NCBI GenBank assembly: GCA_037043015.1
Contig: CM073323.1
Span: 23,278,758 to 23,342,757, forward strand
Length of the DNA stretch: 64,000 nucleotides
Source of the DNA: Bryum argenteum
Taxonomy: Eukaryota; Streptophyta; Bryopsida; Bryales; Bryaceae
Direction: 5' to 3'
Both the position numbers and the translations under genes were made by a program. Numbering within the stretch: position 1 is the first letter of the stretch; every line of letters starts with the position of its first letter. This document shows, one piece after another, positions 14,002-52,871 of this stretch. Under the pieces are notes generated by a model. The model searched no databases. It saw nothing but the letters and a program-made list of their open reading frames with translations, and was not told the origin of the DNA.

Positions 14002-15403
14002 ATGATGCTGTGCATGCCACCAATGTCAGACCTACCCTCGGAATTCATCAACACAGGGCCTGGTGGAGGCGGAAGTGCCGATCACTCACGCCGGCTTCTC
14101 CCGAATCCAGTTTCCGAAGTGTCAATGATCGTGCACGCACTAGCAGCAGCAGGGCAAACTCAGAGCGAGAGTAGTTACGCAACCATGGATAGAATGATGT
14201 CGAGCTCACAAGCTCCATACTCAGAGTACGTAGACATCAGCGTCGCGTCCGCCACGCCATGGCGCCCAATTCAAGGATGGAGTACCGAGGCCGCGCACAC
14301 CAGCAGCAGCCCAAGCTACTACGACAATCCACACTCCAACTCGCCCGATCATGCAGGTACCCCTCAACAAAGACTCTCCCGTCCTTCCCAGCTAGCTAGA
14401 CTTCGAGTGTCGCTCAAGCTACATGACTCATTACTTTATTGTTTTTGTTCTGTGGGACCCGGATTTGAAAAATCTTGCGTGTCGATTGTTTTTACTGTGA
14501 TTGAACGCAACACCCACCTATGAGAGGAAAGCGCACAAACTCCACTTTGTTCTTGTCTACGTGCTACTGTTGTGTGATCGATCGCATCGCTCTCGCAACT
14601 TTTGGTATTGAGAATTCCGGTTTGGTATTTTGATAGGGATGCAAAGGAGCGGGTATTACGAGCAGGTGGATGGGTTCGAGCAGGGGAATACTCATCAGAG
14701 CCATAGCCAGCAGGCAGAGCCAAGCTCCTCATCAGGTGGCAAGAAGCGGAAGTATCGCGGCGTGCGGCAGCGACCATGGGGGAAATGGGCAGCAGAGATT
14801 CGCGACCCGAAGAAGGCAGCGCGAGTGTGGCTAGGGACTTACGATACAGCGGAGGAAGCTGCGCAGGCTTACGACAACGCGGCGAAAGAGTTTCGTGGAT
14901 TGCGTGCGAAGCTGAATTTCCCGGACGGGATTCACCAGGGCGTAGGCACTTCGTCACGGTCACGCCCAGCAGCACGCAGCGCTCAACCACCAGCTCCATC
15001 GCTCCCACCCCCGCCACCACCGATCATTGAGTCTCGGCACCACCACCACCATTACCCGAATTCCCCGTCGCGCGCAAGCTCGAGCGCGGACTCGTACTCG
15101 GAATCCGCCGCGCCCGCGCAATACTCATCATACATGCAACCGGATCCTTACAACATATACAACCATCCATATCCGGAGTATTCCTTCAACACGGTTGATA
15201 CATTCTCGTCCTCGTATCGAACTTACGGCACTGAAGCTCCAACTAGTTTTGGATCCCATTACTCGAATTACACGGACTTGCAATCCACGAGCGCCCCGGA
15301 GCTTTCTTATGATCAAATCTTTGAGCAACAGACTCATGACGAATCATCCGCTCCCGGTAGCCTCTCGCCAGGTTATGATTTCCCATTCTATCGTCGACAT
15401 TAG
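14002..15403 (+). CDS. AP2/ERF-domain transcription factor (ERF subfamily)
   Basis: Two exons, 14002-14356 and 14637-15403, joined in phase 1, give 373 residues. The first ATG of the open frame (14002) was chosen; ATGs at 14005, 14014 and 14023 follow closely. One AP2 domain lies at about residues 157-214 ([20 protein letters not shown], then [20 protein letters not shown]). The Ala and Asp in AAEIRD are the residues that mark the ERF rather than DREB subfamily, which bind GCC-box DNA in the nucleus. The N-terminal segment [13 protein letters not shown] resembles the conserved N-terminal motif of the ABR1-like ERF group, and the intron upstream of the AP2 domain fits that group. The C-terminal half is low-complexity, rich in Pro, His, Ser and Tyr, as in activation regions. 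Target genes cannot be read from the sequence. Confidence 0.9.
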
Positions 15404-27819: not shown

Positions 27820-28204
27820 TTGCGCTGGTAATCTCTTGAGGCAGAAGCTCGAGGTGTGGTAGCTGCTGCGATCCGGAATTATCGGATCTGACTCCGAACC
27901 TTGCAGTTGGATTGCGTGCCGTAAACTGTGCGAGCCTCGACACTCAAGCAAAGGCCATCTCCGGACAACAGTCCAGCTCCAGCCCGTGCGATCTGCCGTA
28001 GATCACCACACTCCGGCTCTGTTTTGTCACTTCACCCCCACTGCCTACAAGAAGATCAAGAATCCGCTGCGCCAACAGGTGACGCTTCCACCACCAACGA
28101 GCCACACCACCGAACAGGTGTTGCCGCTTGAGCACCCACCCTCAACGTTCGGAGAACAGCAATCAACAAAGACACAACCCATAAAGGTACGCAAACTCCC
28201 AGGT

Positions 28205-30211
28205 ATGAATCTCCCCTCTTTCTACCTCTTTTCGATGATTCTAATTGTTTTTATCAAACACAATAAACAAAAAACATGTAATGTTCATTGTAACGCCCCA
28301 TGTAACGCTTGGAAGATCAATGTTTCCAAGAGGGGCCAAGAAAACTACTACAAAACATTTAACCAATCTAAACTCGCTCACAGCTACTTTGCTCAGTCTT
28401 TACCTATCAAGAATCAAGATGCTAGCACTATGACAAACTCTCTCTATCTCCATTCTACAAAACCGCTAACACAATACTTACGCCCCAACAGCTTCATGTC
28501 GACAGGTCTGTCTATTCCCGCTATCACCTCCCTGCAGGACATCGAAATGGAGGATGCTGTTCAAAACAACAAACGAAACACCATAGAAAAAGATCCTTCA
28601 AAGCAGAAGAAATCCAAAAGCACGTACAAGCCTATCTCCTTGTTCAGAGATCCATCGCTAGTTGAGCTATGGTATGGCTATCCCACCATGGAGCGCCTGG
28701 CGTATGATGCTGGTATGCCGCCTCTTATCAACACCAAGTCCATAGAAGAACTGACAAGCCTGGGGTACAAAACAAACGAAGCAAACGAGCTCAACACAGC
28801 AAGGATGTCATTCCCGCGTATTGCACAAAAACTCTGGCCAACCACTCGACCTGACTCTGTAGCAGGACAACATGTCAATGTCACGCAATTGCCGTTCGAC
28901 ATTGAGGTACATTCAGAAACTCATCTTTCATTGGACTACCACATTTTGCTTCACTTCGAAAAACCAAAGACACCATTCAGCCAAGACACTATTATGCAGA
29001 AAATAGTAGCTCGATTACACACCATGGAGATAGAAACAGGAGATCAGATTGGGGAGCCAATCGCCATACTTTGCCATGGTCCAAAAACGAACAGAGTATG
29101 GTCTGGCATGGTCAAACTGCACCTAAAAACTCCAGCACTTGATGGCTTGGCGCTGCTACGCGGGTCTCGAATCTTCGCCATTCCACTGGACGATGAGGTA
29201 CCAACCATCGCCAAAATCGCCAAAGCATACGATGCACTCGCCCCCAGCAACCTGCTTTCCGTGAAGATTGCCAGCGACTCCATACGCGACCTCGAGGCAC
29301 ACCAACTCATCAAAGAAGTCATGGAAGATAGCTTCCGGCGCAACCTCGAATACGAAATATCACAAGTACAGAAGAGAGCAGGAGAATCCTTCGGATGGCT
29401 CGTCACCACATCGCCAGATCAGCTAATCAAGCTCAACACAGGCCGCATAGGAATCGCCGGGGAGCTCCTACGACCTGCAGCAGCCAACAAAGATCATTTG
29501 TCTCATGATGCAGTGGTCAAACGAAACTGCTTGGTTCTCATAATCAAGGGCCTCAATCTCAACAAATCCGTGGACGAAACAACTGAAGGGCTGAAGCGTC
29601 ACCTGGGGGAGAACAATGTGGCATCAGTTTTCTACCCACGCTCCAAACCGCCTCTCCACAGCGGCATAGTCAACCTGGAATGCTTGAACGCTACAGTATA
29701 CAAGCAAGAAGTCCGCAAATCCGCAAGAATTTGTGGAAAATGGGTGGAATTCCAACCCCACCCTAATAGTTTGGATGGTAGCGCAAAACCGGACGAAACT
29801 ACACTCAAAAAGTTTGGTTTCATGGATGTGAACAATGCCTTGGCTAACACTGTAGCTGCTATTCAGAATGCACCAGGACCCAACAAAGCGGCACTGACCA
29901 AGGACGACATTACAACGCTCGTGGAAGACGTCATTTCAAAAGAGAACAACAAACTCAGAAAGGAGTTTAAAGCGGACCTCACCAACGTAAAGAACGACAT
30001 TTGTGCTGAAGCTCAAATCTACGCCGATAAAATCGATTCAGAACTGAGAGGTGCCCTCGCAAACCTGGAAAGCGTAATGATGCAGTCGATACAAGTGGTG
30101 CGCACCTTATCGCGTCCTAGCAGCTCCAATGCCACAGCTACCTCAGGTACAACACCTTTGCTCATTGCTCCACCAATTACAAATAGTGGACAGACAAACC
30201 GGATGCGTTAG
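28205..30211 (+). CDS. Putative LINE ORF1 protein
   Basis: An uninterrupted frame of 668 codons starts from the first in-frame ATG (28205); the open frame itself reaches back to 27986, and a later ATG at 28547 (MEDAVQ) is an alternative. I recognise no catalytic domain. The middle alternates beta-like and helical segments, and the last 120 residues look coiled-coil and hydrophilic (SKENNKLRKEFKADLTNVKN), as in chaperone-like ORF1 proteins. Base composition is balanced, unlike the G-poor DNA from 30.7 kb on. After the TAG stop the same frame stays open for another 63 codons with coding-like content (LSDAQVHMCTEALRRLRSVQ), so the stop may be a mutation. Assignment as ORF1 rests on position and strand. 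Confidence 0.6.
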   Translation: MNLPSFYLFSMILIVFIKHNKQKTCNVHCNAPCNAWKINVSKRGQENYYKTFNQSKLAHSYFAQSLPIKNQDASTMTNSLYLHSTKPLTQYLRPNSFMSTGLSIPAITSLQDIEMEDAVQNNKRNTIEKDPSKQKKSKSTYKPISLFRDPSLVELWYGYPTMERLAYDAGMPPLINTKSIEELTSLGYKTNEANELNTARMSFPRIAQKLWPTTRPDSVAGQHVNVTQLPFDIEVHSETHLSLDYHILLHFEKPKTPFSQDTIMQKIVARLHTMEIETGDQIGEPIAILCHGPKTNRVWSGMVKLHLKTPALDGLALLRGSRIFAIPLDDEVPTIAKIAKAYDALAPSNLLSVKIASDSIRDLEAHQLIKEVMEDSFRRNLEYEISQVQKRAGESFGWLVTTSPDQLIKLNTGRIGIAGELLRPAAANKDHLSHDAVVKRNCLVLIIKGLNLNKSVDETTEGLKRHLGENNVASVFYPRSKPPLHSGIVNLECLNATVYKQEVRKSARICGKWVEFQPHPNSLDGSAKPDETTLKKFGFMDVNNALANTVAAIQNAPGPNKAALTKDDITTLVEDVISKENNKLRKEFKADLTNVKNDICAEAQIYADKIDSELRGALANLESVMMQSIQVVRTLSRPSSSNATATSGTTPLLIAPPITNSGQTNRMR

Positions 30212-30708
30212 AAAACGCCTGCGGGAAGGAGCGACAAGTCGATTATCGATGGCTTGACACCCATCGCTCGACTCTCCGACGCACAAGTGCACATGTGCAC
30301 AGAAGCTCTTCGGCGCTTGAGAAGCGTCCAACTCTACCAACTCTACCGTTTCACCACTGGACCCGCATGGAGGAACGTAGTAACTCTCCGTCATCTCCAA
30401 TAACAATCACACCGCCCTCACCAAACTGAGAGGCAGCGCTCTCGCGTCTAATAGCACCAACGCCTTTCTCATTAGAGTCGACAACACCATCAAAAGCAAG
30501 ACCGGAAGATGCGCACAGACAAGAGCAGCTGCCAATTGCAAGCTGCATTCCGATAGCAGCGACAATAACAGGGAGAGGAAGAAGACAAAACTCCCAAGGC
30601 CAAACCCTCACCGTATGTCCGCATCAGGCTCCTGTAACCGCCCTTGATAGTGACGTCCAAAAGCAGAAAAAAAATCTCATTGTAATTAGTACTAGGATTT
30701 CGCAATCA
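30212..30708 (+). other. Spacer between ORF1 and the repeat/2A frame
   Basis: It begins with the 63-codon continuation of the ORF1 frame (to about 30403) and then has no recognised coding. A sharp change to A/C-rich, G-poor DNA occurs at about 30.7 kb. Confidence 0.5.
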
Positions 30709-31798
30709 TTGCAAGATATTTTTTATTATTATGTGTATTCCTTTTTCATACAAAATCAAAAATCGCATTACTATACCATACCCAGTGCACACAAAACTAC
30801 CCTTTCAAACACACACTCTAAACTACATTCTAAAACTCGATATACCATTTCTCTAAAGAAAAGAAGAAACAAAAAATCGCACTACAAATACAAAATCACC
30901 ATCCAAAAATCAAAATATAAACGCTGTTCCAAACTTAGGACATACCCAGAATACATATCCCATTCCACACACAACAATACTAACTTCCGCCCTAAAAAAC
31001 ATACAAAAGACACATATGCCCTCAACTGCCACTCATCACATAAAGCCAAACAATCTTGGCCTACTGACCTTACTATAGATACAACAACAATAAACCCCGC
31101 ACTTACAAAACAGATTAAATCACTACACACCTTTACCGCACCAAGAATAAACAAAACCATCTTTCAAAAATTGTACAAAAACACACATACACAATTATAT
31201 CTCATCCAAGCCCAAATAAAATTCTACACAAAAGGCAACAACAAGATACTCCACCCAACTAACACCTACGCCTCACAACAAAAAAAACATACTGGGAATA
31301 TTTGTCACAACAAAGCTCGTACAAAGGCAACAATAAAGCCTCATACTCGATTACAAAATACAAAAACACATGTCTCTTCACACCAAAAACCAATATATTT
31401 ACCATGTAAACCAAATAGAGCTTGGCCTCCCGGCCTTGCCTATAAAAAGATACATCAAAGAAGAAACAACAAACCAATAGTCCCAAAAACCTACAAAACG
31501 TATATTTCACAAACAATCAACAAAATACTAGAAAACACAACTCTCTATAAACAATTACTTATCAACACTCTTAAACCTATAAAAGATAGATTGACGTACA
31601 CACACTTAGGTATTGTTTGCTCTAAAACATTACAAAAAACCAAGGCAATATGTAAACAATTTTGCGCTCAAACAAATACTCACCTAAAACAAAGCCAAAT
31701 CCCTACAAAACAAACAAACATCTTATCACACCAAAAACAAATACATAAAAACACACACAAATTACAAATGTTTACTCAAAAAGATAACAAAACACACT

Positions 31799-32280
31799 AA
31801 GTGCGGCCTCTCGGCCTCGCCCAAAGAAAGACTCATATACAACAAAGCCAAAACCTTTCAAAACAAACACACACTTTATCACACCAAAAACAAATACATA
31901 AAAACACACACAAATTACAAATGTTTACGCATATAGACAACAAAACACACCAAGCTGAGCCTCTCGGCTTCGTCGAACTAAAGACTTATCTACAACAAAG
32001 CCAAAACCCTTCAAAACAAACAAACACCTTATCTCAACAAAAACAAATACATATAAACACATACCAATTACAAATGATTACTCAAAAAGATAACAAAACA
32101 CACCAAGCTCGGCCTTCCGGCCTCGCCCAAATAAAGAATCATCCACAACAAAGCCAAAACTCTTCAAAACAAACAGACACCTTACCACACCAAAAACAAA
32201 TGCATACATACACATACAAATTACAAAAGTTTACTCAAAAAGATAACAAAACACACCAAGCTCGGCCTCCTGGCCTCACC
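31799..32280 (+). repeat. 153-bp in-frame tandem repeats with GC-rich hairpin cores
   Basis: Units start at 31799, 31952, 32105 and 32258, exactly 153 bp (51 codons) apart. Each begins with a variant of AGCTCGGCCTCCCGGCCT, in which GGCC-TCCC-GGCC can fold back. Isolated further copies of this core occur at 31418, 32336 and 33890. The cores stand out as the only GC-rich words in a G-poor region. Confidence 0.9.
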
Positions 32281-32541
32281 CAAATAAAGACTCATCTACA
32301 AGACTCAAAAAAAAATTTTACTCACACAATTAACCGAGCTAGGCCTCCCGGCCTCGCCTATAGAACAATAATCCAAAATACATATAAAAACCAAAATAAT
32401 ATAAAAGACATACTTACAAGTTTACAAATACACGCACACATCCTCAAATCCACATTAGCACACAAAACACAACAAAATACTCACAATGCTAAAACATACC
32501 ATTACGTGTACAACGGGAAATACCACCTAACCAAATGCGAT

Positions 32542-32565
32542 GACATTGAAACCAACCTAGGGCCC
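32542..32565 (+). other. 2A-like motif 1 (degenerate)
   Basis: Encodes DIETNLGP followed by MPNIL. The first Pro of NPGP is Leu (CTA), which is expected to abolish 2A activity. It lies in the same frame as motif 2, 126 bp upstream of it. Confidence 0.75.
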
Positions 32566-32667
32566 ATGCCAAATATACTCAAAATACAACAATTTCTCCC
32601 ATCAGACCCGAAAACCCCTATGACAACCAACGCTCACCACATAATAGCACTACTTCTTCTATGTGGT

Positions 32668-32691
32668 GATATCGAAACAAATCCGGGCCCT
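32668..32691 (+). other. 2A-like ribosome-skipping motif 2 (intact)
   Basis: Encodes LLLLCGDIETNPGP followed by Met. This matches the D-(V/I)-E-x-N-P-G-P consensus with the usual hydrophobic LL and Gly-Asp lead-in. In 2A peptides the ribosome fails to form the Gly-Pro bond, and the downstream product starts at Pro. The frame continues open both upstream and downstream. Confidence 0.88.
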
Positions 32692-33180
32692 ATGCTTGAT
32701 ATTCTAAAAACGCACCCGAACACACATAAAAGAAGAAGCAAACTTTACTTCCTCCCATGCACAATCAAACTACACCCGGAATGCCAACACCTAGCCACTT
32801 TGTTTTCCCCATGTTTAAATCCCACACACCCAAAACACCAAGAAACAAATACAACCTACCCACACCTCTCCCAATACACTTACGAAAACCGCCACCACCC
32901 TCCCCCACGTATACTCTTTGCACTCATCATCACAATAAGCCCGTCACTTAAGACCTGCAACCACATACTAATGCAATTACCCAACCCAAACTGGACGACT
33001 ATTTTATTGAATAAAATGATGCACCTACAAAACCCACCCAAATGACACATTGCTACTCCACACCCATACATCCATTCTAAAGACACAAACCCGAACTTAT
33101 TTAAACCCCCTAACACTATCCACAACCAACTCTACGAATACATTCGACAAAATAATACACCCCCGAATTTACAAACCATT

Positions 33181-33580
33181 TTGGAAGAATTCCCATTTCT
33201 ACCTAAAATTCTTCTCACAGAATCTCTAAAACTCAAAGACCCATTATTAGAATACTCCTACCCCCCTCTTGCCCCTCTCCTGCCACCCCCGCAACTCCTA
33301 CGAATACCAACATCTAACCATAGCACACACTTCATCACATGGAATGCCTCATCGCTAAACACAACCCTACCAAACATCCAAGATCTAATTTCAGACACAC
33401 CAACAAATCCTGCAATCATCACAATACAAGAAACCAAACTAACTGCCACAAAATCCACTAAATATTTACAAAACTTATTTCCAAACTACAAACTAATCCT
33501 CAATAACACCCACGCCTTGACCAGATGTATGCAACAAAGAAAGCCATACACACCGGCGAGAGGTGGTCTCCTCACACTTA
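33181..33580 (+). pseudogene. LINE endonuclease, first copy, N-terminal half only
   Basis: The segment is homologous to 34710-35100. Shared landmarks in order are EFPFLPK (EFPYIPK in copy 2), ITWNASSLNTTLPNI, IITIQETKLTA (metal-binding Glu of the APE fold), NNTHALTRC and RGGLLTLIH. Directly after LTLIH the sequence becomes a CATACA microsatellite, and the catalytic C-terminal half (GDFN, SDH) is missing. This copy cannot be active. Confidence 0.8.
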
Positions 33581-33583
33581 TAC

Positions 33584-33632
<49 letters not shown>

Positions 33633-33652
33633 TGCACATCCACATCCACATC

Positions 33653-33686
<34 letters not shown>

Positions 33687-33695
33687 TACACATAA
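33580..33695 (+). repeat. (CATACA)n microsatellite at a duplication breakpoint
   Basis: About 116 bp of CATACA/ACACAT units with some CATGCA and CATCCA variants. It starts exactly where the first endonuclease copy stops resembling the second. Long Thr-His or Cys-Val open frames through it are repeat artefacts. Confidence 0.95.
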
Positions 33696-34398
33696 AAATA
33701 CATACACAATCATAAATACAAATATTTTCGCACTTGAACCTCTTGGGAACCCCAAGCTCATACTATGGCTACTAAGGAATCTCAAGTTTATACTTGGGCT
33801 ACTTGGGGATAACACATTAAACAAAACAACAAGAACACAAATCTACACATTACACCAAAAACAAACCTATCTCCCCCACAAACCAAACGGAGCTCGGCCT
33901 CCCGGCCTCGCCAAAAAATTAATACACCAAAACACACCCCATCTCATAAATAATACAACAAAAACCAACCCAACAAAACAAGATAAATACTCCAAACAAA
34001 TGAAAAATCCCAAGATACACAAAACAAATTGGTCCCCCTCTCAAACACATACAACCTATACCCAAACACAATCAAAACCTGAAAATCCTAAAATGCCCAA
34101 TCCTAAAACAAACACCATATCACATCTTGCCAAACCAAAATCCAAAACTCCCAAAGGCAAATTCATCCCAAATTATTTATTCCTCCTACTCTGCGGTGAC
34201 GTCGAACCAAACCCAGGCCCCATGCCAAATATCCTACACACCCACCCTGCCAAACATAGACGACACAACAACACATACTTCATTCCGAGCACAATTATAT
34301 TATATCCAGAATACAAACCCCTCGCAAAAATATTCTCCTCCACAATCCAAACCACACACCCTGACCACCCAACAAGTATAAACAATACCCATGTCTAA
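33696..34398 (+). pseudogene. Second upstream segment of the duplicated LINE module, with 2A motif 3
   Basis: The frame continues from the microsatellite. The stretch QTYLPHKPNGARPPGLAKK at about 33870-33912 parallels 31390-31450 of the first copy (PIYLPCKPNRAWPPGLAYKK). 2A motif 3 follows at 34198-34221, then MPNIL and a segment parallel to the post-2A part of copy 1 (RHNNTYFIPSTI against RRSKLYFLPCTI). The frame stops at 34398, but the alignment to copy 1 continues in another frame, so a frameshift lies near 34385. Confidence 0.65.
34198..34221 (+). other. 2A-like ribosome-skipping motif 3 (intact)
   Basis: Encodes FLLLCGDVEPNPGP followed by MPNIL. It is a perfect match to D-(V/I)-E-x-N-P-G-P. 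It lies just upstream of the complete endonuclease copy, in the position expected for releasing the pol enzyme. Confidence 0.88.
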
Positions 34399-34481
34399 CA
34401 CGTTACATACATAACCACCCCCAATACCCACCGCCAAATTTTCTATACGCACTAATTACCACCATTGGTCCTCTACTAACA

Positions 34482-35945
34482 ATGTGTGAACAACATATAT
34501 TATCAAACCCAACTCCTGAATGGACTACATCATTACTTAACAAACTTTCCCGTTTACCAAACATCCCCTCCCGTCACTTAAATAATCCTCACCCCTACAC
34601 TAACTTTTTAGAAACACACCAACACAATATTACACCCTCTCGCACGATACACAATGAATTATATAATTATATCACAAACATAAACAACAATGCAAACCTA
34701 CAAACATTAATGGTTGAATTCCCATACATACCAAAAGAACTACTAATCGAAGCCTTAAAATGTAAAACACACATTCCCGAGTACTCACACCCACTACGAC
34801 TTCCGCCCACTCCCCCTCTTCAACCTCAACCCCAAATTACTACATACCAAAGCACACTTATGACTACCTGGAATGCAGCTTCACTCAATACTGCACTTCC
34901 CAACATCCACCAGCTCGCGGATAACCTTCCCGCCATCATTACCATACAAGAAACAAAACTCACTGCAAATAAATCTACAAAACACATACAACGTATGCTT
35001 CCACAATATAAACTCATCTTCAACAACACACATGCCCTCACTAGATGTATACAACAAAGATTAAGATACACACCCACTAGAGGCGGCCTTCTCACCCTAA
35101 TCCACTACAAATATGCTTCCCCAGGCAATGTCACCAAAATCCCAAATTCCCAACACCAGCAAACATCTCACCATATTTACAAATCATACATATTGCGAAC
35201 AAACCACTCATACCATGGATTCTTATCCATCTCTACATGCCGTCCCATCCCGAAGATATAGGACTAATCCCCTCCATTCAGCAAACAATTACCACCCAAA
35301 TACAAACACATCCAAATCACACCCATATTCTTTGTGGTGATTTTAACAGAGACATCGCACTCATAGGGAGACAAAACGAACATACCACAACACCACCACA
35401 AGACGAAGACATTCAATGGCGCACCTTCACCGATAGTCTCAATCTAAAGTACATTCCTACAAACAGCCCATTCTCCAGACAAGGCGGATTCAACTATACA
35501 GAATCGAGCCTTATTGACGGTTACTACATAAATTCCACCAATCACCATCTTTTCACCTCGACTACCAACCACACACAAAACCTTAACTCAGACCACTCGC
35601 CAGTAAATCTTCACATACCTCAACAAACACTAATAGCCCGCCCTCCACCAATATCAATTAAAACAACTCCTCGTATTCTAAACCCCATCCCCCAAGCCAA
35701 CTTAGACTCATTTAATACTGCATTCTCTGAACAAAACGCATTGTCTATTAACAACCTTACGACTATTTTAAAACAAGAACAACTCACTAGCACTGAATGG
35801 ACCACTGCATGTACTCAATTAGACCTCCTCATAAACTGCACCACAGAAACATTGCTAAAAACTTGTACCGCCCCCCCTATCCCCACTCTCACACCACAAA
35901 CTAACCATCAGGGTGGATTTCTACCAAGAAAATCACAAAAAGACT
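34482..35945 (+). pseudogene. LINE AP-endonuclease domain, full-length copy, frameshifted
   Basis: The APE motifs are present in order: TTWNAASLNTALPNI, IITIQETKL, YMPSHPED, HILCGDFNRDI and LNSDHSPVNL. These contain the catalytic Glu, the GDFN Asp/Asn and the SDH His. The first part (to about 35235) and the second part (from 35237) are in different frames, so one frameshift breaks the domain. In an active element it would nick target DNA for target-primed reverse transcription. Confidence 0.82.
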
Positions 35946-38074
35946 AGAAGAGACACCTCTTTACATACTACTTAATTCGCAAAACAATCTACATAGCCAA
36001 CAACAACGACACTTGGAGAACACACCCAATAATACAAGAAACACAACAACACACACATGCAAGCATACCACCCCCCCCCACAGATGACACTAAAAAAGAT
36101 TGGCTAAACACACTAGCAGATTTAGCCAAAACCGCAAACAAAAAAGCAAGGGCCATAACCACAAAATACACCCGCCAATCCATCAAGAAGGCCATAACAA
36201 AATATAGACAACTTTATAACACTAGCCCCAAGAAAATAAACAACCGTGTCTTCAAAAACCTAGAAACCCCACCACTAGACTGCATCACCACTCGCAACAA
36301 TGAAATCCTGACTAGCCCAGACGACATAGCCCAAGAAATCTTCTTGCAGCAGTCCATCACCAACCGCCCAACCATCCCAACATGTTATTATCAACCAGAA
36401 CATCCCCAAAACTGCACATGTGCAGTCCGCCAATACCCGTGGCATGATTTAGATGGATTTATTCTTGAAAAGAGAGGTACCCTAGAAACTCCGCTACACA
36501 CATACTACAATCGGGAAACTTTTGACATTTGCTTAAAAAATCTCTCACAAAACAAAGCTCCTGGCCTAGATAAAATCCCTAACTCCATTCTCAAAAATAT
36601 GCCTGACTCATTCCACACCCTTCTACACCTCTTCTTCTCCCACTGCTATAAACAGAAACAAATACCTGCATCTTGGAAAACCAGCCTTACTATACTTCTC
36701 TACAAGAAAGGTGACCCCTCACTTCTCCCCAACCATAGACCCATTGCCCTCGCAAATACAATATACAAACTCTTTACTAGTACCCTTACATTTATTCTAT
36801 CAGCATACGGCGAACGCCACCAAATCCTTCATGACAGCCAAGAAGGCTTTCGAGCTGAAAGAAGTACCTCTAGGCAAATCCAACTTCTTACGGCCACACT
36901 TGAAGATGCCAGAATCACAAACCAAGACATTTATGTAATGTACATCGACTTCAAAAATGCATTTGGATCCTTAGACCATGCTAGACTACTGGCAATAATG
37001 GCTGACCTAGGCTACCCAATAGATGCTGTTGCACTAATTGGAAACATCTACTCACATTCCACCACCATATACACTGGAGAACACTTTGGAAAAACAAAAC
37101 CAATACCAATCCAACGGGGCACCATCCAAGGCGACACACTAAGCCCATATCTGTTTATCATATTCCTAGAACCCCTTCTGAGATGGCTACAACTAGGAAA
37201 CCATGGTTACAAATTTGGTACATCAAACAATAATTAACTCTGCTGCATATGCTGATGACCTAGTTGCTCTCACTGCTACCCTTCAAGCGCTACAAACACA
37301 AATGAATAAAATTGAAAAATTCAGTGACTGGACTGGACTCGAAGTAGGTACACCAAAATGCACAGTTACCGGCTGCCCAAACAAATCCAAACTCACACCC
37401 ACCGCCTTCAAAACCCTTCTACAAACACAAAACATCAATTACAAAAATGAACCATTACCAACACTACACCAAAATGAACCTACCCCTACCTCGGTATTCA
37501 AATGGTACCAACTCTCAAGTGGAAACTCCAAACACACATAACCACCAAAAAACTTACTGAACAATGTGAAAAACTCTCTAACTGCCCTGCCACAATGAAA
37601 CAAAAAATCAATATGGTGGATACAGTCATACGCGCAGGCGTTGCATATAGCTTCTATGCAGTACCCTACTCACTACCAATGATCAAAAAACTAGACAAGA
37701 AAATCACCAGCATCCAAAAAACAATATGTGGGCTACCTAAATGTACGGCAAATGTCATTGCACAATTACCACATGAAGACTTTGGCCTTGAAGCTTTCTC
37801 CCTTAAAAATGCTTACCTCAAATGCATTGGAGACCAACTTACAAATGCACTAAATAACAAAGGTAAACTTGGCCCAATCTACCAAGGTCTCATTCAACAC
37901 ATTCTAGCAAAATATGGTGGATCCCAAGAAATCCCCCGAATAAAATACAACGATTGCATACATTCCCCAATCACAAGAACAATCTTCCTACTTAAAGAAG
38001 CTGGTGGACTACACCTCAAATGCACACTTGACAACTTTCAACTCCAAGCCACCGAATTAGAAACGCGATGGTGA
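35946..38074 (+). pseudogene. LINE reverse transcriptase, frameshifted
   Basis: RT landmarks are KAPGLDKIPNSIL, LLYKKGDPSLLPNHRPIAL, EGFRAERST, YIDFKNAFGSLDH, QRGTIQGDTLSPYLF and SAAYADDLVAL. All catalytic Asp residues are present. The frame changes near 37225, just before AYADD, and again near 37515, and the thumb region (37502-38074) ends in a stop. The open frame extends upstream of 36344 to about 35960 through a Lys-rich linker. The element would need another copy's enzyme. Confidence 0.88.
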
Positions 38075-38194
38075 CCTGCATCAATTCTCCTACCCCACCT
38101 AAATCCCAAAGTCTCCCTCAAATTATTACATAAACTACTACTTCTCAAAATAACCAAAATAAGCCACCTCACACTCCCAAATGGAACCACCCTC

Positions 38195-41100
38195 ATGTCA
38201 CCTATAGATTTCAAAATATACTATAAAAATCCCAGTAAATTAGAACGCAGCGCTCTCAATCTTGCTCAACAATTATTTTGCCAAAAAATATGCACCCCCG
38301 AATGTTCACAACCGTGCAACTCACACTCACCATCCCATCTTCTATACAACGAATACATAACACATGACCACGAAATATCCCCACCTACTCCTCCACCTCC
38401 AACACATTTAACCTTCCCACCACCTACACCAACAATACCCCCGCCCAAACAAATCATCAATAACCCGATTGACTTCCCCATACACCACATATCCGCACAC
38501 AAAATAGACACCAAAAAAGACAAATACAAAATCATCCACTCCACAAACAAATACATGTGCCACTGGGAAATAAACAATCAACTCACATACCACACTTGGT
38601 TATCACCTAAAGAACTATTCCCACTCAACTATCCAACTGTCATACAAAACAACCTTAACCTTCTAACCGAATACTACACACAACAAAAACACACATTATA
38701 TAAACACATCATCAATACTAACTTCACAACACCACAATCAACAGACACCCGATTCATCCCACCTCCAACAAATATACCCCTTACGCAAATCTATTTACAA
38801 GACTGCAACCCTGACAAAGACATTCTCACAAACTCCCCTACAATACAAATCCTAAACGAAACAACACATTTATTCGATAAAAATGGCCACTTTCTCCTTA
38901 CCATCCCTACATCAAGACTCAAATGGCTATGGAAACAATACCACACATACCTTAACACTAACCACGGTCTAACCCCCCAAACCCAACCCTTTGAAACAGA
39001 AATCATCCTACTATATAAACGATACCACCACACTCTCTCAAAACGCAATCCCAAAACAACAGACCACCACACGCTCCCCACAACCATTATAGACACTCTC
39101 ATTACATCATTCTGCATAACACACACGTATTTCTCCTCCCCAGTAACATGCCCTTTACAAATCACCAAATTCTACTCCACATTCCCACGTGACAAGATAT
39201 TTGGCTCCAATGGCCCTGCCTTTCATTATAAATGGGAAGGAATTGGTTATGCCCATCCACACAACGACGAAATCACAAACAAAGTATTCACTGGGCTAGG
39301 TTAGCCGCACAACATAACCCCAATGCTATAACCATTGTGGTCATGCCAGACAAGCAATGGTTCCACAATCCAACCCCATACTCAACTGAGTTTCCAGATA
39401 CACACGTTTTAGCACACTTTGCCGCTGACACATTAACATACGAACAACCCACCGTCCCCACTGACCACAAAAAACCCCGCACCGAACCAAACACGATCCA
39501 AATCCTTTGCATCCACCACAAGCAACACCATCTCACCACCACGGCAGACACACATAATCTTACAACCACTCTTAGAAATCTATCTATCACCCAGTTCCAC
39601 CTTCAAGAAATTCCCCCCACACCTGAAAACACCAAAGTCAACAAAAACAAAAAATGGACCAAACTCCTATATCCCCCAACACATACACCCAACCTCTCAA
39701 GCACACCCCCACTCCCACAATACACCACACATCTTCCTATCAAATTCCCTCCAGAATACAGCTATTATACAGACGGATCCTTCATACCACCACAAGAAAC
39801 AGCAGCGGGCTATATGCTCCCAGAAACCGCCGGTTATGGCATTTATAACCCAACAAAACCAGAAATACAAATATCAAAAAGACTACCGGGCTTACAAACC
39901 ATCTTTAGGGCAGAACTTATGGCCATATACAAAACACTCAAAATCCTCACAACTAGGTACATAGACGAACCCGCATACATATTTACAGATTGCATAAACT
40001 GCTTGTACGTTTTACAAACACACCTAACACATCCTACTCTACAAAACAACCACCCCGATTTAAATACTCTCATCGCCATTACAAATATGTTAAAAATACG
40101 TACACAACCCACCATGTTCCACAAAGTAAGAGCTCATGTTAACATATCCGGAAATGAAAAAGCAGATAAGCTAGCAAAAGCAGGAAACGAAAAAAACTAT
40201 AAATTTGCCCGAAAAAACCACGAATTTGCACACATCACCCCTTTCTACTACCAAAAAGATATATGGCCTGGACCGCACCACAGACCAGATAAGGGACCAG
40301 TTAGAAACCTAGCTACATACCTTACCAAATACGACCGTGAAAACAACCTCACAATTCTAGCACAAAACTTTCCTAACATAAACAAATGGACCTCCAATCT
40401 CGATATACATGCAAAATCTTCAAATGCCTTCTGGAAAAACCCAAAAATTACAGACTCCCAAATAACTAGCATACTAAAATTCCGCACAGGACAATACATG
40501 GGTAACGCGCGAAAACAACTATTCTTTGGACATATACGATCCCCGAAAAAAACATATCCTATCTGCAACTCCACAGACGTAGACACATGGCTACACGTCT
40601 TACTTAAATGCCGACACCCAAACATCCACGCACTTAGAGTTACCAGGCACAATCAGGCAGTTAAAACCATTAAACAACTCATCATGTCCAACACCAAGTC
40701 TAGATGTTACACACTTATAAACGCCGGAAGGCACCTCAGCGCACCCCCAGACAACACGGTACCCAGTTGGCTCCTCCCTTGCACTTGCGACCCACGTAGA
40801 TGCCACTGCAATGCAAGATTTCGACCTGACTTACTTTGTGTAATCGACCTCCCACACCAAGGCACACCTCCACAACACCCCAACAACAACATTGCCATTC
40901 AATATATTGAATTCACATACTGTAACGACAGATTTCCATACGAAACCATCACAAATAAAACCAATAAATACCAACCATTACTCGACTCAATAGCTGCCCG
41001 TGGTTGGAAAGTCAACCCCCTCATAGTCATTACTTCAGGAGCTAGAGGCACTACTCACACACCATCAATGACCTCACTGGAAACTTCATTCAAACTAACC

Positions 41101-41239: not shown

Positions 41240-41460
41240 AGGGGGCGTAGTGGTACAAACCACTGTTGTTACCAGCGCATTGTTTCAGTCTCAACTTCTC
41301 GGGTAGGGGCCGGGTGGTTGATTTATTTTTCCTGCCATATACTCTCAGACAGCCCCAAGCCATGCGAAGTGCTCAAACGAGCCCGACAAGGTTCGAACTC
41401 GGACCAGCACGATTACAAACGTCCTACACCTCAACCACCCTAGGACAGCACGGCTTGGTG
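41240..41460 (-). mobile_element. tRNA-derived SINE-like sequence in the LINE 3' region
   Basis: On the minus strand, an A-box-like TGGTTGAGGTG (about 41427-41437) is followed about 38 bp later by a good B box, AGTTCGAACCT (41389-41399). That is the spacing of an internal pol III promoter. The downstream body ends at a T-run (CCCCCTTTTTTG on minus), as in Au-type plant SINEs. No target duplication was found, so it could instead be part of the LINE 3' UTR that resembles a SINE. Confidence 0.45.
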
Positions 41461-46715: not shown

Positions 46716-47898
46716 TCAACTATCATAGAGTAAAACTAGATCACCCTCTTTAAATTCTTTCTTTTGCAATTTACTATCATAAAAAGATTTTCGTCGTTGT
46801 TGAGCTACATAGGTATTATATAAAGCTTCTCTCCTATGTTCATCTAATTTCTCCAATTGACAGAGTCTAGTTTCCAAACTCTCAACATCACCCAATCTAT
46901 CTGTAATTGCTATCCTTAGGGAAGGTAATTCAAATTCTATTGGAAGAATAGCTTCCTGTCCATAAACCAATTGGAATGGTGTAAATTTGGTAGTTACCTT
47001 ATATGTTGTTCTGTAAGCCCAAAGAGCTGCCCATAATTTCTCATCCCAATCGGTACCAGCTCCTGCAATGGTTTTAGTTAAAATATTACATAACAAGCCA
47101 TTGGTTTTCTCTGTTTGCCCATTGGCTCTAGGGTGGTAAGGGCTAGTTTTTCGATGCTTAATAAGAAACTTAGTTGTTAATAATTCAATAGTTTCATTCA
47201 AAAAATGAGTGCCCCTGTCGCTTATTAATTCGATTGGACAGCCAAATCTAGAAATTATGTTTTCGTATAAGAATTTAGCTACGGTTTGAGCGTCGTCATT
47301 TCTAGTGGCCATGGCTTCCGCCCATTTAGTAGCATAATCTGTTGCAACTAAGATATACCGCTTTCTACCATATCTAGTTGGAGGTGCTATTGGACCAACA
47401 AAGTCGATCCCCCACTTTTCAAAGGGTGCTAATGCCAATAGGGGTTGTAAAGGCATAGCTGTTGTAGGGGTAGGACGTCCTACCCTCTGACAAGGATCAC
47501 AATGTTTAGCATAATGATGGGCGTCTTTAAAAAGGCAAGGCCACCAATAGGCAAAATTTAAAACTTTTCGAGCTGTAGTGTCTCCCGCAAAATGACCCCC
47601 GCATCCATCGGTATGACACCCCTCTAAAATTAAGGGAATTTCATTTGTAAAGATGCAACGTCGTAATAATCCGTCCTTACCTTTTTTTATATAAAATATC
47701 ATTTATTAAAGAATAAGGAGCACATTTATGCATAAAATGTTTGATTTGTTTTTCATTCAATTGGTTTGGTAAAGTATTAGTCCTCAAATATTCTAAAGTA
47801 TCTTTATGCTCCGATTGTATTGCTTCTACTACAAACAATTGCCCATCTAGTAGCTCATCATCGATTGGAACAATATTAGATTCCTCTGTAGGTTCCAA
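46716..47898 (-). pseudogene. Gypsy integrase, one frameshift
   Basis: The 5' linker frame (47898-47677) and the main frame (47702-46716) overlap at a frameshift. The HHCC zinc-binding part is present (CHTDGCGGHFAG, then HCDPCQRVG). The DDE core is complete: WGIDFVGPI, ISDRGTHFLNE and HPRANGQTEKTN. The C-terminal part ends FYDSKLQKKEFKEGDLVLLY, a GPY/F-like region. It would join element DNA to the genome. Confidence 0.88.
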
Positions 47899-48038
47899 TC
47901 GGGATAAATGGTCAGCATTGGCAATTTGGCATGGGTCTGACCAGGCCTAACTATAATTGAAAAATCGAATTCCTGTAGGAGTATTAAAACCGACCACTCA
48001 AATCGGGTTTATCAATTAAATATTTTAACGCATCGGGA

Positions 48039-49481
48039 TCAACGTAAAAAAGTAAATGGATATCCCAATAGATAATGCCTAAATTTTTGTACCGCAAAGA
48101 TCATACCTAAAGCCTCACGTTCGGTAGTGGTATAATTTTTCTCTGCAGCTATCAATTGGCGAGTGGCGAAATAGATAGGGTGATCCATTTTCTTTTCATC
48201 TTTTTGACTCAAAGCACAACCCAATGCAATATTAGAAGCATCCACATATACATGGAATGGTTTTTCCCAATCGGGAGGTATTAACACAGGTGCACTACTC
48301 AAGCGTTCTTTTAAGGTAATAAAGGCTTTAGTACATTCCGAAGTCCAAATAGGATTTACTCCCTTTTCCAATTTTTTTAATAAATTGGTTAATGGGGCGG
48401 CATGTGTAGCGTAATCCTTGACCGCTCTTCTATAATAACTTCCTAAACTTACAAAACTTCTCACTTCAGTTATTGTCTTAGGTTGGGGAGTATTAACAAT
48501 TAAGGCAATTTTATCTGGATCGGTACTAATACCTCCCTTACTAACAATGTGTCCTAGCAATTTATCATAAGGTACAACAAATTGACATTTAGCTGCATTG
48601 AGGGAAATTCCAAACTGGTTACATTGAGCAAAACAATGTGCCAAATGGGTGGGATGGTCTTTCTTATCACCAAACACACAAAAATCATCTAAAAATATCT
48701 CCATAAATTTACGTAGATATTTATGAAATGCTACAGTAACAATTCTCTGAAAGGTCGCAAGCCCATTACAAACTCCAAATGACATCCTATTATAGGCATA
48801 GGTCCCCCAATCGGTAGTAAAAGTAGTCAATAATTGATCTTTTAACGCTATGGTAATCTGGTTATAACCAAAGAAACCGTCTAAGAACGAGTACATCTCA
48901 TGGCCGGCTATGGAGTCTAAGACACTATCTGTAAAAGGCAAAGGGAAGTAATCTTTTTTTGTAGCTGCATTTAACCGCCTATAGTCTTGACAAATACGGA
49001 AATTACCATTTTTCTTAGGTACTATTACAATTGGACTAACCCATTCGCTAAAGGGTATTGGATAGATAAATCCTATTTTTAGGAGTTTGTCTATTTCCTC
49101 TTTCACTAATAGGGAGTATTTTGGGTTAAGTCGGTGTTGCCTTTGGCGCACCGGTTTAGCATCTTCTTCTAAGTTGATATGGTGTTGACACAACTCAGGT
49201 GGTACACCTTTCAAATCTTTATAAGAAAATGCAAAAGTGTCCAAATGCGATTTAAAAAAACTTAGCCAATTATTAACTTCTTCCGATTTTAATTGTTTAC
49301 CTAACTGAATTATATTTGGGTTCTCTTCACTACCAATATTCAAATCTCGACACAAATCTTTGTAAACATGTTTTATTATTGGGGTTGAATCAAAAGAATA
49401 ATCCCATAAATTCTTAGATTCACCCATCGGTTCTATTTCTGATTGGATTGAAATGACTCCATATACTGGTTTGTCTGTCAT
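48039..49481 (-). pseudogene. Gypsy reverse transcriptase and RNase H
   Basis: A 480-codon open frame. RT: CQDYRRLNAATKKDYFPLPF, FLDGFFGYNQITIAL, FGVCNGLATFQ and IFLDDFCVFG (the YxDD box is FLDD). RNase H starts at HVYVDASNIALGCALSQ, with the second acid at TEREALGMIF. The frame stops at LLGYPFTFLR, and the rest of RNase H (YVDPDALKYLIDK) continues in another frame, so it is truncated by a frameshift near 48040. It is otherwise intact. Confidence 0.88.
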
Positions 49482-50236
49482 CTACGATTCAAGAACCCTA
49501 TCGGAGTTTTCATTCTCTGAACATGAGAATTTATATTCTCCCGGACCTATTTCCTTAAAAACTCTCGCTGTTGGTACTATACTTTGTTTTGGTAGTTTAC
49601 ATAGTTTGACTTTATTAGCATTCTTATCATATTTATCATCAGTGTCATAGTCAAAATCACTTGAAGCTTCAGGTGATTCCCATTGTGTTTCTCCACGATA
49701 TTTCTTTGAATACATTTGTAATTAACTTTAGATGTTCCTGACCCAATCGTTATCAAGCCCTTACCCCAATCGTCTTTAGCTTTTGCTTGATAAAGCCAAG
49801 GTCGGCCCAATAAAATAGGGTAGGATGAAAAAGAATTAGTTTGTTGGAATACAATATAGTCTCTAAAGAAAACAAGTCCAGATATTATAGTTTTTACTTT
49901 ATATAGAATACCCTTTGGTATTACCCGGCTTTGATCAGCCATGAGTAAAACTAATTTGGTATCTTGTAAACCCGGTAATTGTAAGCTAATCATGGTTTCC
50001 CAATTCATTAAGTTTACACTCGAACCTCCATCTACCTGCACTCTTGTAATTACTATCCCATCAATCATGACATCAATCGTTGGACTACCGGGATCTGGAC
50101 TAATTGAGATTTCATGTACTACGTGTTTTCTTCTTTTTCTAATTAAATTTGATTGTAAAGTACTCCGACAAAGTGGAGCTACCCCTAACAATTGTTTAAT
50201 TGTGATGTCAGCTTTTAAATGACCCAAGTCTTCCAA
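49482..50236 (-). pseudogene. Gypsy aspartic protease region, frameshifted
   Basis: The frame at 50236-49577 carries VQVDGGSSVNLMN, matching the retropepsin D-(S/T/G)-G-(S/A) active-site box (here DGG), and YPILLGRPWLYQAKA, the ILGRPWL flap-side motif of plant Gypsy proteases. The linker to RT continues in a second frame (49715-49482). Protease would process the Gag-Pol polyprotein. Confidence 0.78.
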
Positions 50237-51996
50237 AATATCATAAGGAGTACACCTTGCATAATTCCAATTGGTTTAGATTTTTTTATTTTTCCAAACC
50301 GATTGGATTTAACATGGACTGGTTGATCTACAATTGGCACTGTATGTTTTCTCCAATTGGGGTGCTCTGGTAATATCTCCAGATCTTCACCAATTGGTAT
50401 TGCTCTATTCGATTGTTTTTCATTAATTTGGCTAAATTTCATTAAAGGATGATTATGAATATTTGGGGCTGGTTGATAATCATCAAACTCTCCATCAACT
50501 ATTGGGTTAAAATATTTCCGGTTTGGTTCAATTGGAACTACTGTCGGTAACTCCAATTGAGATTTCTGTAAAGGAGCCGTACCTATTGGTACACCCTCAC
50601 TACCCATCCTCTCATTATTACCATTTGGTATAACAATGGATCCCAATTGGATTAACGGATCAGCACTTGATTGTGCATGTCCTCCAATTGGTTTTTTATC
50701 ACCAGTTGTTGATGATGAGGTCTTGTCTTCACTAACAATGGGTTGGTCGCCTATTGCAATTTGTTTTGCTGCTCTGGCCTTGGTTGTTACCAATTGAGCA
50801 TTTTGAATTTGCTCTTTAAGATCAACTCCTATATGGGTAACAGGTTGGGCATAATTCATTTTCCCTTTCTCTTTATTTATATATATATGGTGAACTGCTC
50901 TTTCATTATCATTGAGGTTGTAACCATCAGGCAAAAGTACTAATTTTGCACTTGTGTCTGAGTTCTGAACTAACCCATCATTATTTCTAGGATTTTCTTT
51001 CTTTGGCCCATTGCATTGTTCAGAAGTGTGGCCAATCTGACCACAATTTCCACACAATGGAACATAAGGTACACTTGCCCTGGCGTTAGGACAATTCCGA
51101 GCGTAATGCCCCATAATGCCCCATCTGGTGGCAATTGAAACACATACTATTGGATTTGTCTTGTTGGTTTGAATTATTACATCCATACATAGGTTCACCT
51201 TGGTTAGGACTCCTATTTGACATTGAATTCCATCCTCTATTTTGAGAATTGGGATTTTGTGGGATATACTGATTGGGATTGCCATTGTATCCACTATTGT
51301 TGAAATTCATTCTATTTTAAAATTGGGATTAAAATTTTGGTTATTTGGCACATAATTGGGATTAAAATTATTTCCCTTATAATTAAATTGTCGTACAAAT
51401 CCGTGGGGATTATAATTATTACCGGAATAATAATTATAATTATTTTTAGTGTTTTCCATGTAGTTAACTTGTCCAATTCTATTTCTTTGATTAGTATCCA
51501 CCACTAAGCTTTTTTGTAATTTCCTACATGATTCTATATCATGTTTTCCACCACAAAATTTACACTTTGGAGGTAAATTAGGTGGTGATGGGCAATCTAA
51601 TAACATATGACGTTGGCCTTTGCAATTGGTGCACCATATGTTAGCTCTATCATTAGGAGGTTGGTCTTTCTTTCCTGTAGCATTAAAATGAACCGCTAAC
51701 TCATTAATTTTATTGGTCAATTCCATCAACTGAGATTCAATCCTAGCTTGCTCTGCCCGTCTTGGATTAATTGGTGGCGGACTTATAGGTACAGTTTGTA
51801 CAAGTCCTACATTTATTGGTATATTTGCCGGTAATGTTACATTAGGTGAACCATCGGGGGTAGGTGTTGCATACATCTGGGGTGGATATGGATTCTGATT
51901 AAGTGCCATCGGTGCTAACCTATCGCTCTGAGTCGGTCTTGGCAATGATTGGATTGCCATTCCATAGTTGTCCTCAAAATTCACCTCTTCCCACAA
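50215..51996 (-). pseudogene. Gypsy Gag C-terminal part with zinc knuckles, frameshifted
   Basis: Three overlapping frames (51996-51307, 51310-51086, 51294-50215) cover one protein broken twice. Knuckle-like motifs are CTNCKGQRHMLLDC, CKFCGGKHDIESC, CFNCHQMGHY (broken) and CGNCGQIGHTSEQC. The third is interrupted by a perfect 10-bp tandem duplication TAATGCCCCA at 51104-51123. Zinc knuckles bind genomic RNA in the particle. The rest is Asn/Gln-rich linker leading to protease. Confidence 0.75.
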
Positions 51997-52042
51997 TTTG
52001 GCCCTCCTATAAGCATCATTTAAATTATTGGGTACAATTTCT

Positions 52043-52780
52043 TTAACATGTTTTCAATTGGTGTGGTACTAGACCTCTGATAAAAAACCTCATCTGCATT
52101 TGATCGTTATACCCATGGTCAGCTGGAAGTCTTAAGACTAAATCTTCCAATCGGCCATAGTAAGAATCAACGGACTCTCCTAAATTCATTGTAATATCCT
52201 GCAGTTGTTCACTTAATTGCTCCTCATAAGCTATTGGACAAAAATGTGCTAAAAACTCAGTTCTTAACATATTCCAATTAACAAAATGACCAGGTTGTTG
52301 CCGTTGAAACCATTGTTTCGCATGGCCTTGCAATGTAATCGGGAATATACTCAGCCAATGGGCCTCTGTTCTAGCGTTGTTAGCATTGCACACGGTTAAA
52401 AACTCGTGTATGTGCCTATCGGGGTCACTTCCCATATTCCCATAAAAATGTGGAAATTGGATTAAGGAATATGGTTGATCGTTAATATCTCCGTCCCTCA
52501 TAGCCACCGGTAATACCGGGTTTGCTAACGCCATTGGTTCTCTTTCAAAACCAAAACAATCACTCACAAACCACTCAATTGGACGTTTTCTCACATGAGA
52601 TACCTGATCAGATTGTCCTATGCCATTTAAGTCATAGATTTCTTTCTTAGGACTATTGGGTAACGAACTCGACCGATTGCTCTCAAATTGGTCCAAACAT
52701 TGTCGAAATTTAGATCTTCTCCTAGCTCTCTCTTCCCTCTTGCTTATTTTAGGCTCAATTATATCATCGCTACTCATCAA
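52043..52780 (-). pseudogene. Gypsy Gag (capsid-type retrotransposon gag domain)
   Basis: A 245-codon frame starts from ATG at 52780. Retrotrans_gag landmarks are FPHFYGNMGSDPDRHIHEF, LSIFPITLQGHAKQWFQRQQ, WNMLRTEFLAHFCPIAYEEQ and GESVDSYYGRLEDLVLRLP. The frame breaks near 52045, and the protein continues in another frame (AYRRAKLWEEVNFED). It would assemble the virus-like particle. Confidence 0.85.
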
Positions 52781-52871
52781 TATATCTAATAATCAAGTTT
52801 ATAACCATTCCAATTGGTTTAAGTAATCATGAAAATTTGTATTCTTCTCCAATTGAAAATAAAAATTACCT

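Follow-up and report, generated by a model that had tools for sequence, protein, structure and literature searches.

The window analyzed here is the whole stretch of 64,000 nucleotides, and the features found around its 2A-like motifs are listed in Table 1. A six-frame scan of the window for D?E?N?GP detected only three motifs, at 32542, 32668 and 34198, all on the plus strand and in one shared frame. Each is directly followed by Met, and their positions agree with those of the preliminary description. The start of pol is present twice in tandem. That is, the motif at 32668 heads copy A and the motif at 34198 heads copy B, and both copies are broken.

Table 1. Features of the element and its upstream region (positions in the window).
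Feature	Positions	Strand	Basis or remark
Open frame, 782 codons, possible ORF1 (element membership uncertain)	27863..30211	+	strand skew of the same sign as in the element
Upstream frame, basic, low-complexity, shared by the three 2A motifs	30430..34197	+	internal stops 31798, 33043
Tandem repeat, 153-nt (51-codon) unit, 4.2 copies	31665..32301	+	repeat analysis
DIETNLGP, degenerate 2A core	32542..32565	+	scan; CD in place of CG before core
LLLLCG-DIETNPGP, 2A core of copy A	32668..32691	+	scan and copy alignment
Start of pol in copy A, with the pre-endonuclease domain and the N-terminal portion of the APE endonuclease	32692..33573	+	in-frame TGA 33043-33045
(ACACAT)n microsatellite, end of copy A	33574..33702	+	repeat analysis
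FLLLCG-DVEPNPGP, 2A core of copy B	34198..34221	+	scan and copy alignment
Copy B pre-endonuclease domain, internal frame change	34222..34860	+	alignment with relatives
Copy B APE-type endonuclease (Exo_endo_phos_2), frame change inside	34861..35944	+	Pfam E 1.3e-6
Reverse transcriptase (RVT_1)	35948..37237	+	E 7.3e-19; nearest relative among those listed 75 percent identical
RT region continued after frame change	37478..38074	+	74 percent identity to P0001
PCIF1-like domain (PF12237)	38075..39304	+	E 1.8e-11; weak PDB 6irx match, E 0.0076
RNase H domain	39757..40185	+	E 1.1e-14
Zinc-knuckle-like stretch and restriction-like endonuclease pattern (RPD...IEF...K)	40564..41100	+	alignment with 14 relatives

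The StopGo/2A core, (D/G/C/N)(V/I)ExNPGP, is matched by the motifs at 32668 and 34198 but not by that at 32542. The residues ahead of the three cores are HLTKCD (32542), ALLLLCG (32668) and LFLLLCG (34198). In the portion of a StopGo survey that we consulted, hexapeptides that are rich in L and end in (A/S/C)G ahead of D12 form a common class, of which one example (motif 6) was active (PMC12846837). LLLLCG and FLLLCG fit this class, whereas HLTKCD does not. The common lead-in that had been ascribed to all three motifs therefore holds for the L-rich, CG-ending pair at 32668 and 34198, while the motif at 32542, with HLTKCD and NLGP, is degenerate. In the latter, Leu replaces the essential Pro and Asp replaces the Gly ahead of the core, and we consider this motif a dead 2A.

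Then we examined the frame upstream of pol. Over the 1323 codons of 30430-34398, the frame of the 2A motifs is interrupted at 31798 and 33043 and closed by a terminal stop, 3 stops in all. The other two frames contain 54 and 62, and a first-order Markov model gives an expectation of 59.5 (sd 7.6). From these stop counts, the upstream frame is a genuine coding ORF, open far beyond chance. The preliminary description had seen long open sequence on both sides of the motifs; this was borne out upstream, but downstream a stop or a frame change interrupts the sequence in the window. The spacings of the repeats (153, 126 and 1530 nt) are all multiples of three, and the base composition of the region is skewed (A 0.42, C 0.30). 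The upstream product is rich in basic residues (K+R 169 versus D+E 49 over the 1264 residues of 30430-34221), and Pfam recognized no domain in it at E 0.01. As for the possible ORF1 further upstream, it matched neither Pfam at E 0.01 nor, at E 1e-4, any of the 176 relatives fetched.

The same region holds seven hairpin-like motifs of the form GGCC-NNNN-GGCC, at 31424, 31805, 31958 (AGCC...GGCT), 32111, 32264, 32342 and 33896, and four of the seven sit in the tandem repeat at 153-nt steps. They are translated as RPxGLA-like peptides in the window and likewise in P0141 and P0152. In 14 relatives the matching motif is (S/Y)RPRH, in frame with the 2A, and in 10 it lies 89 residues ahead of the 2A. 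It may be the nucleotides rather than the peptide that are conserved, as far as relatives compared as proteins can tell. Folding of the seven stretches was mixed (z from -0.75 to -3.96), and the motif at 31958 folds differently. Because relatives read the motif in a different frame, we had considered the upstream region possibly non-coding; this idea was dropped, since the stop counts indicate coding. Six relatives (P0135, P0139, P0143, P0160, P0167 and P0172) share a partly hydrophobic N-terminus (residues 1-60) of the protein upstream of the 2A, and a profile of it found no match in the window.

Copies A and B were aligned over three stretches (62, 60 and 172 codons), in which their nucleotide identity ranged from 0.54 to 0.66. 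The pooled NG86 values over the 294 codons were dN 0.34 and dS 2.8, the latter being saturated; no dS was obtained from the 60-codon stretch by itself. Within the 2A codons, only p13 (I/V) and p15 (T/P) differ in residue, all other differences being synonymous; these are the two positions variable in StopGo cores. As judged from these aligned codons, the copies differ mostly synonymously, and purifying selection has acted between A and B. Copy B has frame changes between the 2A and the endonuclease and further frame changes and stops later, and we regard both copies as old, decayed pseudogenes. Thus, where the preliminary description had written that the element "uses, or used" 2A skipping, the past tense is favored at this locus.

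The domains of copy B follow in the order 2A, conserved domain, APE, RT, PCIF1-like domain, RNase H and R2-type nuclease. The APE region also gave a weak exonuclease III profile match, below the cut-off, and its relatives are 59-64 percent identical; in a PDB profile search with the relatives, exonuclease III was the sole match, over the endonuclease. The RPD...E...K pattern with the zinc knuckle is presumably an R2-type restriction-like endonuclease, and the first Cys of the knuckle is replaced by Tyr in the window copy. The PCIF1-like domain lies within the LINE polyprotein here and is found in many relatives too; PCIF1 is a cap-adjacent RNA methyltransferase.

Elements of the plant L1 clade have APE and RT without a restriction-like endonuclease, and the presence of this pattern sets the present element apart from them. 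According to the parts of the published descriptions compared, the combination of APE and restriction-like endonuclease marks the Dualen/RandI group, in which RNase H has also been reported, and a 2013 review places RandI under green algae in the table consulted. The features matched here are the APE-type endonuclease before the RT, the restriction-like endonuclease after it (by alignment only) and the RNase H. Because an APE precedes the RT and a restriction-like endonuclease follows it, we classify the element, by its domain composition, as a Dualen/RandI-type non-LTR retrotransposon and not an ordinary plant L1. The earlier term "plant LINE" is amended accordingly, as the element is not a typical plant L1.

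In order to clarify whether relatives keep the motif, we collected close relatives with residues 60-470 of P0004 as the query; this gave 59 proteins, P0004 included, a sample that leans towards the motif because the query contained it. By alignment, 36 of them span the site, 7 begin exactly at the Met after it, and 16 are too short to judge. The core is canonical in 22 of the 36 spanning proteins. In another 10, NPGP is intact and p14 is His (6) or Gln (4), and in the last 4 a single NPGP residue is altered (NPDP in two, NLGP in two). NPGP is thus kept in 32 of the 36, and at the protein level the check proposed in the preliminary description, which relatives without NPGP or with an out-of-frame NPGP would have failed, did not refute the proposal. 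G11, D12, I13, N16 and P19 were found in 36/36 rows and P17 and G18 in 34/36, p14 was E in 25, H in 7 and Q in 4, p15 was variable, and p7 and p8 were mainly Leu or Ile. The pattern used to pick the rows partly restricts p12, p13, p16 and p19. It leaves G11 free, and a pattern-free look at the junction revealed no other type. When near-duplicates were removed, the remaining 22 rows gave the same position pattern.

In relatives such as P0004, the motif is also flanked on either side by coding sequence of the same frame. There, a single open frame covers upstream sequence, GDIEPNPGP, the endonuclease and the first part of the RT, so the expected in-frame link between motif and endonuclease was found; the domains of P0004 were assigned by similarity to the window and the relatives, as no Pfam family was matched at E 0.01. 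No relatives were found in searches of viral contigs or genome contigs.

Variants of the motif were as follows. Gln at p14 occurs in P0005, P0165, P0166 and P0172, and His at p14 in P0139, P0143, P0159, P0167, P0170 and P0171. The part of the survey consulted gives an activity above 95 percent for p14 His and of 26 or 56 percent for p14 Gln (PMC12846837). Two NPGP motifs each are present in P0139, P0143 and P0170. A dead NLGP lies ahead of the intact motif by 44 residues in P0159 and by 42 in the window, and P0030 has GIEPNPGE ahead of its intact core. The layout of P0152 is like that of the window, with a decayed 2A and pol start followed by an intact 2A.

We then looked at the wider family through the RT, using the best 120 of 168 relatives. 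Named proteins among those listed include ones from Haematococcus, Pleodorina and Parachlorella, and many of the listed relatives, named or not, carry PF12237, RNase H and endonuclease domains. The endonuclease was visible in 79 of the 120. In 34 of these listed proteins it is preceded by over 250 residues; 6 of the 34 possess a canonical core and 28 do not (the Gln form P0005 being among the 28). With more than 600 residues before the endonuclease, the canonical core was present in 5 of 14 listed relatives. Among the relatives listed, the canonical cores belong to four Haematococcus lacustris proteins, P0030 and P0004. The Gln form occurs in P0005 and P0097, the latter starting one residue before the core, so that its lead-in lies outside the sequence. 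In the moss-type clade, the domain after the 2A is about 208 to 218 residues long (22 of 28 proteins being measurable).

A quick RT tree was built from 83 rows, namely the window and 82 of the 120 relatives (38 were omitted for odd match length); it includes green algal proteins and no sequence named Dualen or RandI. The 9 motif-labelled rows fell in four places and needed 7 changes, at least 5 of them by well-supported branches, and 16 of 500 shuffles needed as few changes. Gains and losses are inseparable on this tree, because the unlabelled rows include proteins ending short of the site.

We prefer the StopGo reading because the positions fixed in the relatives are those that StopGo needs. 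In working members, one long frame would encode a basic upstream protein, then the StopGo/2A peptide and then the pol polyprotein. As long as the 2A peptide occupies the exit tunnel of the ribosome, no Gly-Pro bond would form at NPG/P; the upstream protein would be released, and the ribosome would continue, making pol from the Pro onward. The upstream protein may be an ORF1p-like nucleic-acid binder. The proposal of the preliminary description, that 2A skipping releases pol from an upstream protein, is supported by the motif, its frame, the purifying selection between the copies and the conservation in relatives. That ribosomes do skip here, how efficiently they would do so and what the upstream protein is for are inferred. 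Weighing against the proposal are the broken state of both window copies, the seven predicted starts at the Met after the site, the saturated dS and, among the listed proteins of the wider family, the 28 of 34 that have no canonical core. Taken comprehensively, the locus very probably holds two decayed pol-start copies, the second with the whole pol, of a 2A-using Dualen/RandI-type element in a probable moss.

The main alternative is that translation of pol starts internally, or restarts, at the Met following NPGP, and that the 2A-like peptide is a relic or serves some other purpose. Met follows the motif in 25 of the 36 spanning proteins, as it does in all three motifs of the window, the predicted start lies exactly at that Met in 7 of the 59 proteins, and the literature, in the parts consulted, reports termination-reinitiation for some LINEs. 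However, the remaining 11 of the 36 carry Leu, Ile, Lys or Arg in its place, which weakens this explanation; in addition, the upstream frame is kept open and the fixed residues match those of StopGo. We therefore think initiation at the Met unlikely.

Another reading is that the polyprotein retains the motif for an ordinary structural role or for recognition by a protease, since conservation by itself does not reveal the mechanism. In fact, a Josephin domain was detected by Pfam after the 2A and before the APE in P0060 (E 7.8e-13) and P0071 (E 2.9e-12), with weaker matches below the cut-off in P0050 and P0030. Against this, the fixed and the free positions equal those of StopGo, the rare p14 variants included, and hhalign found no detectable similarity between the moss-type domain after the motif and the corresponding Haematococcus stretch, although with five sequences on one side this test is weak. 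It seems very unlikely that such a role accounts for the motif.

As to the host, the named relatives among those listed are mostly from green algae, and one might suppose that the element is real but sits on a contig from something other than a plant, or that it was inserted recently from a foreign source. The ERF gene of the window (14612-15403) speaks against this. It matched 7501 proteins (8000 candidates scored, the best 120 listed), and the best named full-length match among those listed was a protein of the moss Ceratodon purpureus (50 percent identity over 97 percent; others, at 49 to 63 percent, stood ahead of it). The alignment holds outside the AP2 domain as well and takes in a C-terminal stretch of 10 residues. 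Because the gene aligns end to end with the moss protein, the host is most likely a moss, and a foreign contig or insertion is highly improbable.

Around the element, neither Rfam (gathering thresholds) nor ARAGORN (bacterial mode) gave a match in the window. In the 3' flank, a stretch at 41350-41450 on the minus strand looks tRNA-like by eye, where ARAGORN in that mode reports no tRNA; it could be a SINE or a tRNA relic. Long frames at 46716-52792 on the minus strand, adjoining the LINE, resemble by eye a Ty3-type gag, RT and integrase.

Finally, the strong A and C skew noted above might let NPGP arise by accident, but D(V/I)ExNPGP is expected from residue frequencies only 4e-7 times in the 1323-codon frame and 6e-5 times across six frames, and with the motif kept in relatives and the divergence between the copies mostly synonymous, we reject a chance origin as practically negligible.

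According to reviews, 2A-like peptides occur in animal non-LTR retrotransposons, as in the sea urchin (Odon 2013), and in L1Tc of Trypanosoma cruzi (Heras 2006). The present element resembles them in having a 2A-like peptide with the usual core in frame with APE-type LINE proteins. It differs from them, as they are described there, in its host lineage, its two endonuclease domains, its RNase H and PCIF1-like domains, its long basic upstream frame and the paired motifs of several relatives. With Dualen/RandI it shares the APE and restriction-like endonuclease in one element, the RNase H and the green lineage; it differs in its probable moss host and in its 2A, which goes unmentioned in those parts of the descriptions that were compared. 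The likeness to the RNA-virus StopGo motifs 2 and 6, in the part of the survey consulted, lies in the L-rich hexapeptide ending in (A/S/C)G, the D at p12 and the tolerated His at p14 (PMC12846837), but the moss case is a retrotransposon and not a virus. The text consulted presents StopGo as widespread among RNA viruses and seldom used in cells. The 2026 survey reports that it found no evidence of natural use by plant viruses, though StopGo works in plants (PMC12846837). Among the best matches listed in a search of open-licence papers, there was no report of a natural 2A in plants or algae. Thus, 2A in LINEs is already known from animals and trypanosomes, while the moss lineage and the element group seem to be new in a comparison that lies outside the eukaryotic 2A survey of Rao et al. 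2025.

We lean slightly towards a broader view, in which StopGo would be a standing expression device of Dualen/RandI-type elements in green plants and algae. For the green lineage this would be the first natural case of ribosome skipping, tuned through the His and Gln variants at p14 and through pairs of 2A motifs in which one member may be switched off. If this is true, a mobile element of the plant lineage would depend on StopGo, which would be a natural use of it in that lineage. Such elements would also be a source of 2A sequences that may suit plant ribosomes, and the skipping would explain how proteins are separated in a two-endonuclease LINE.
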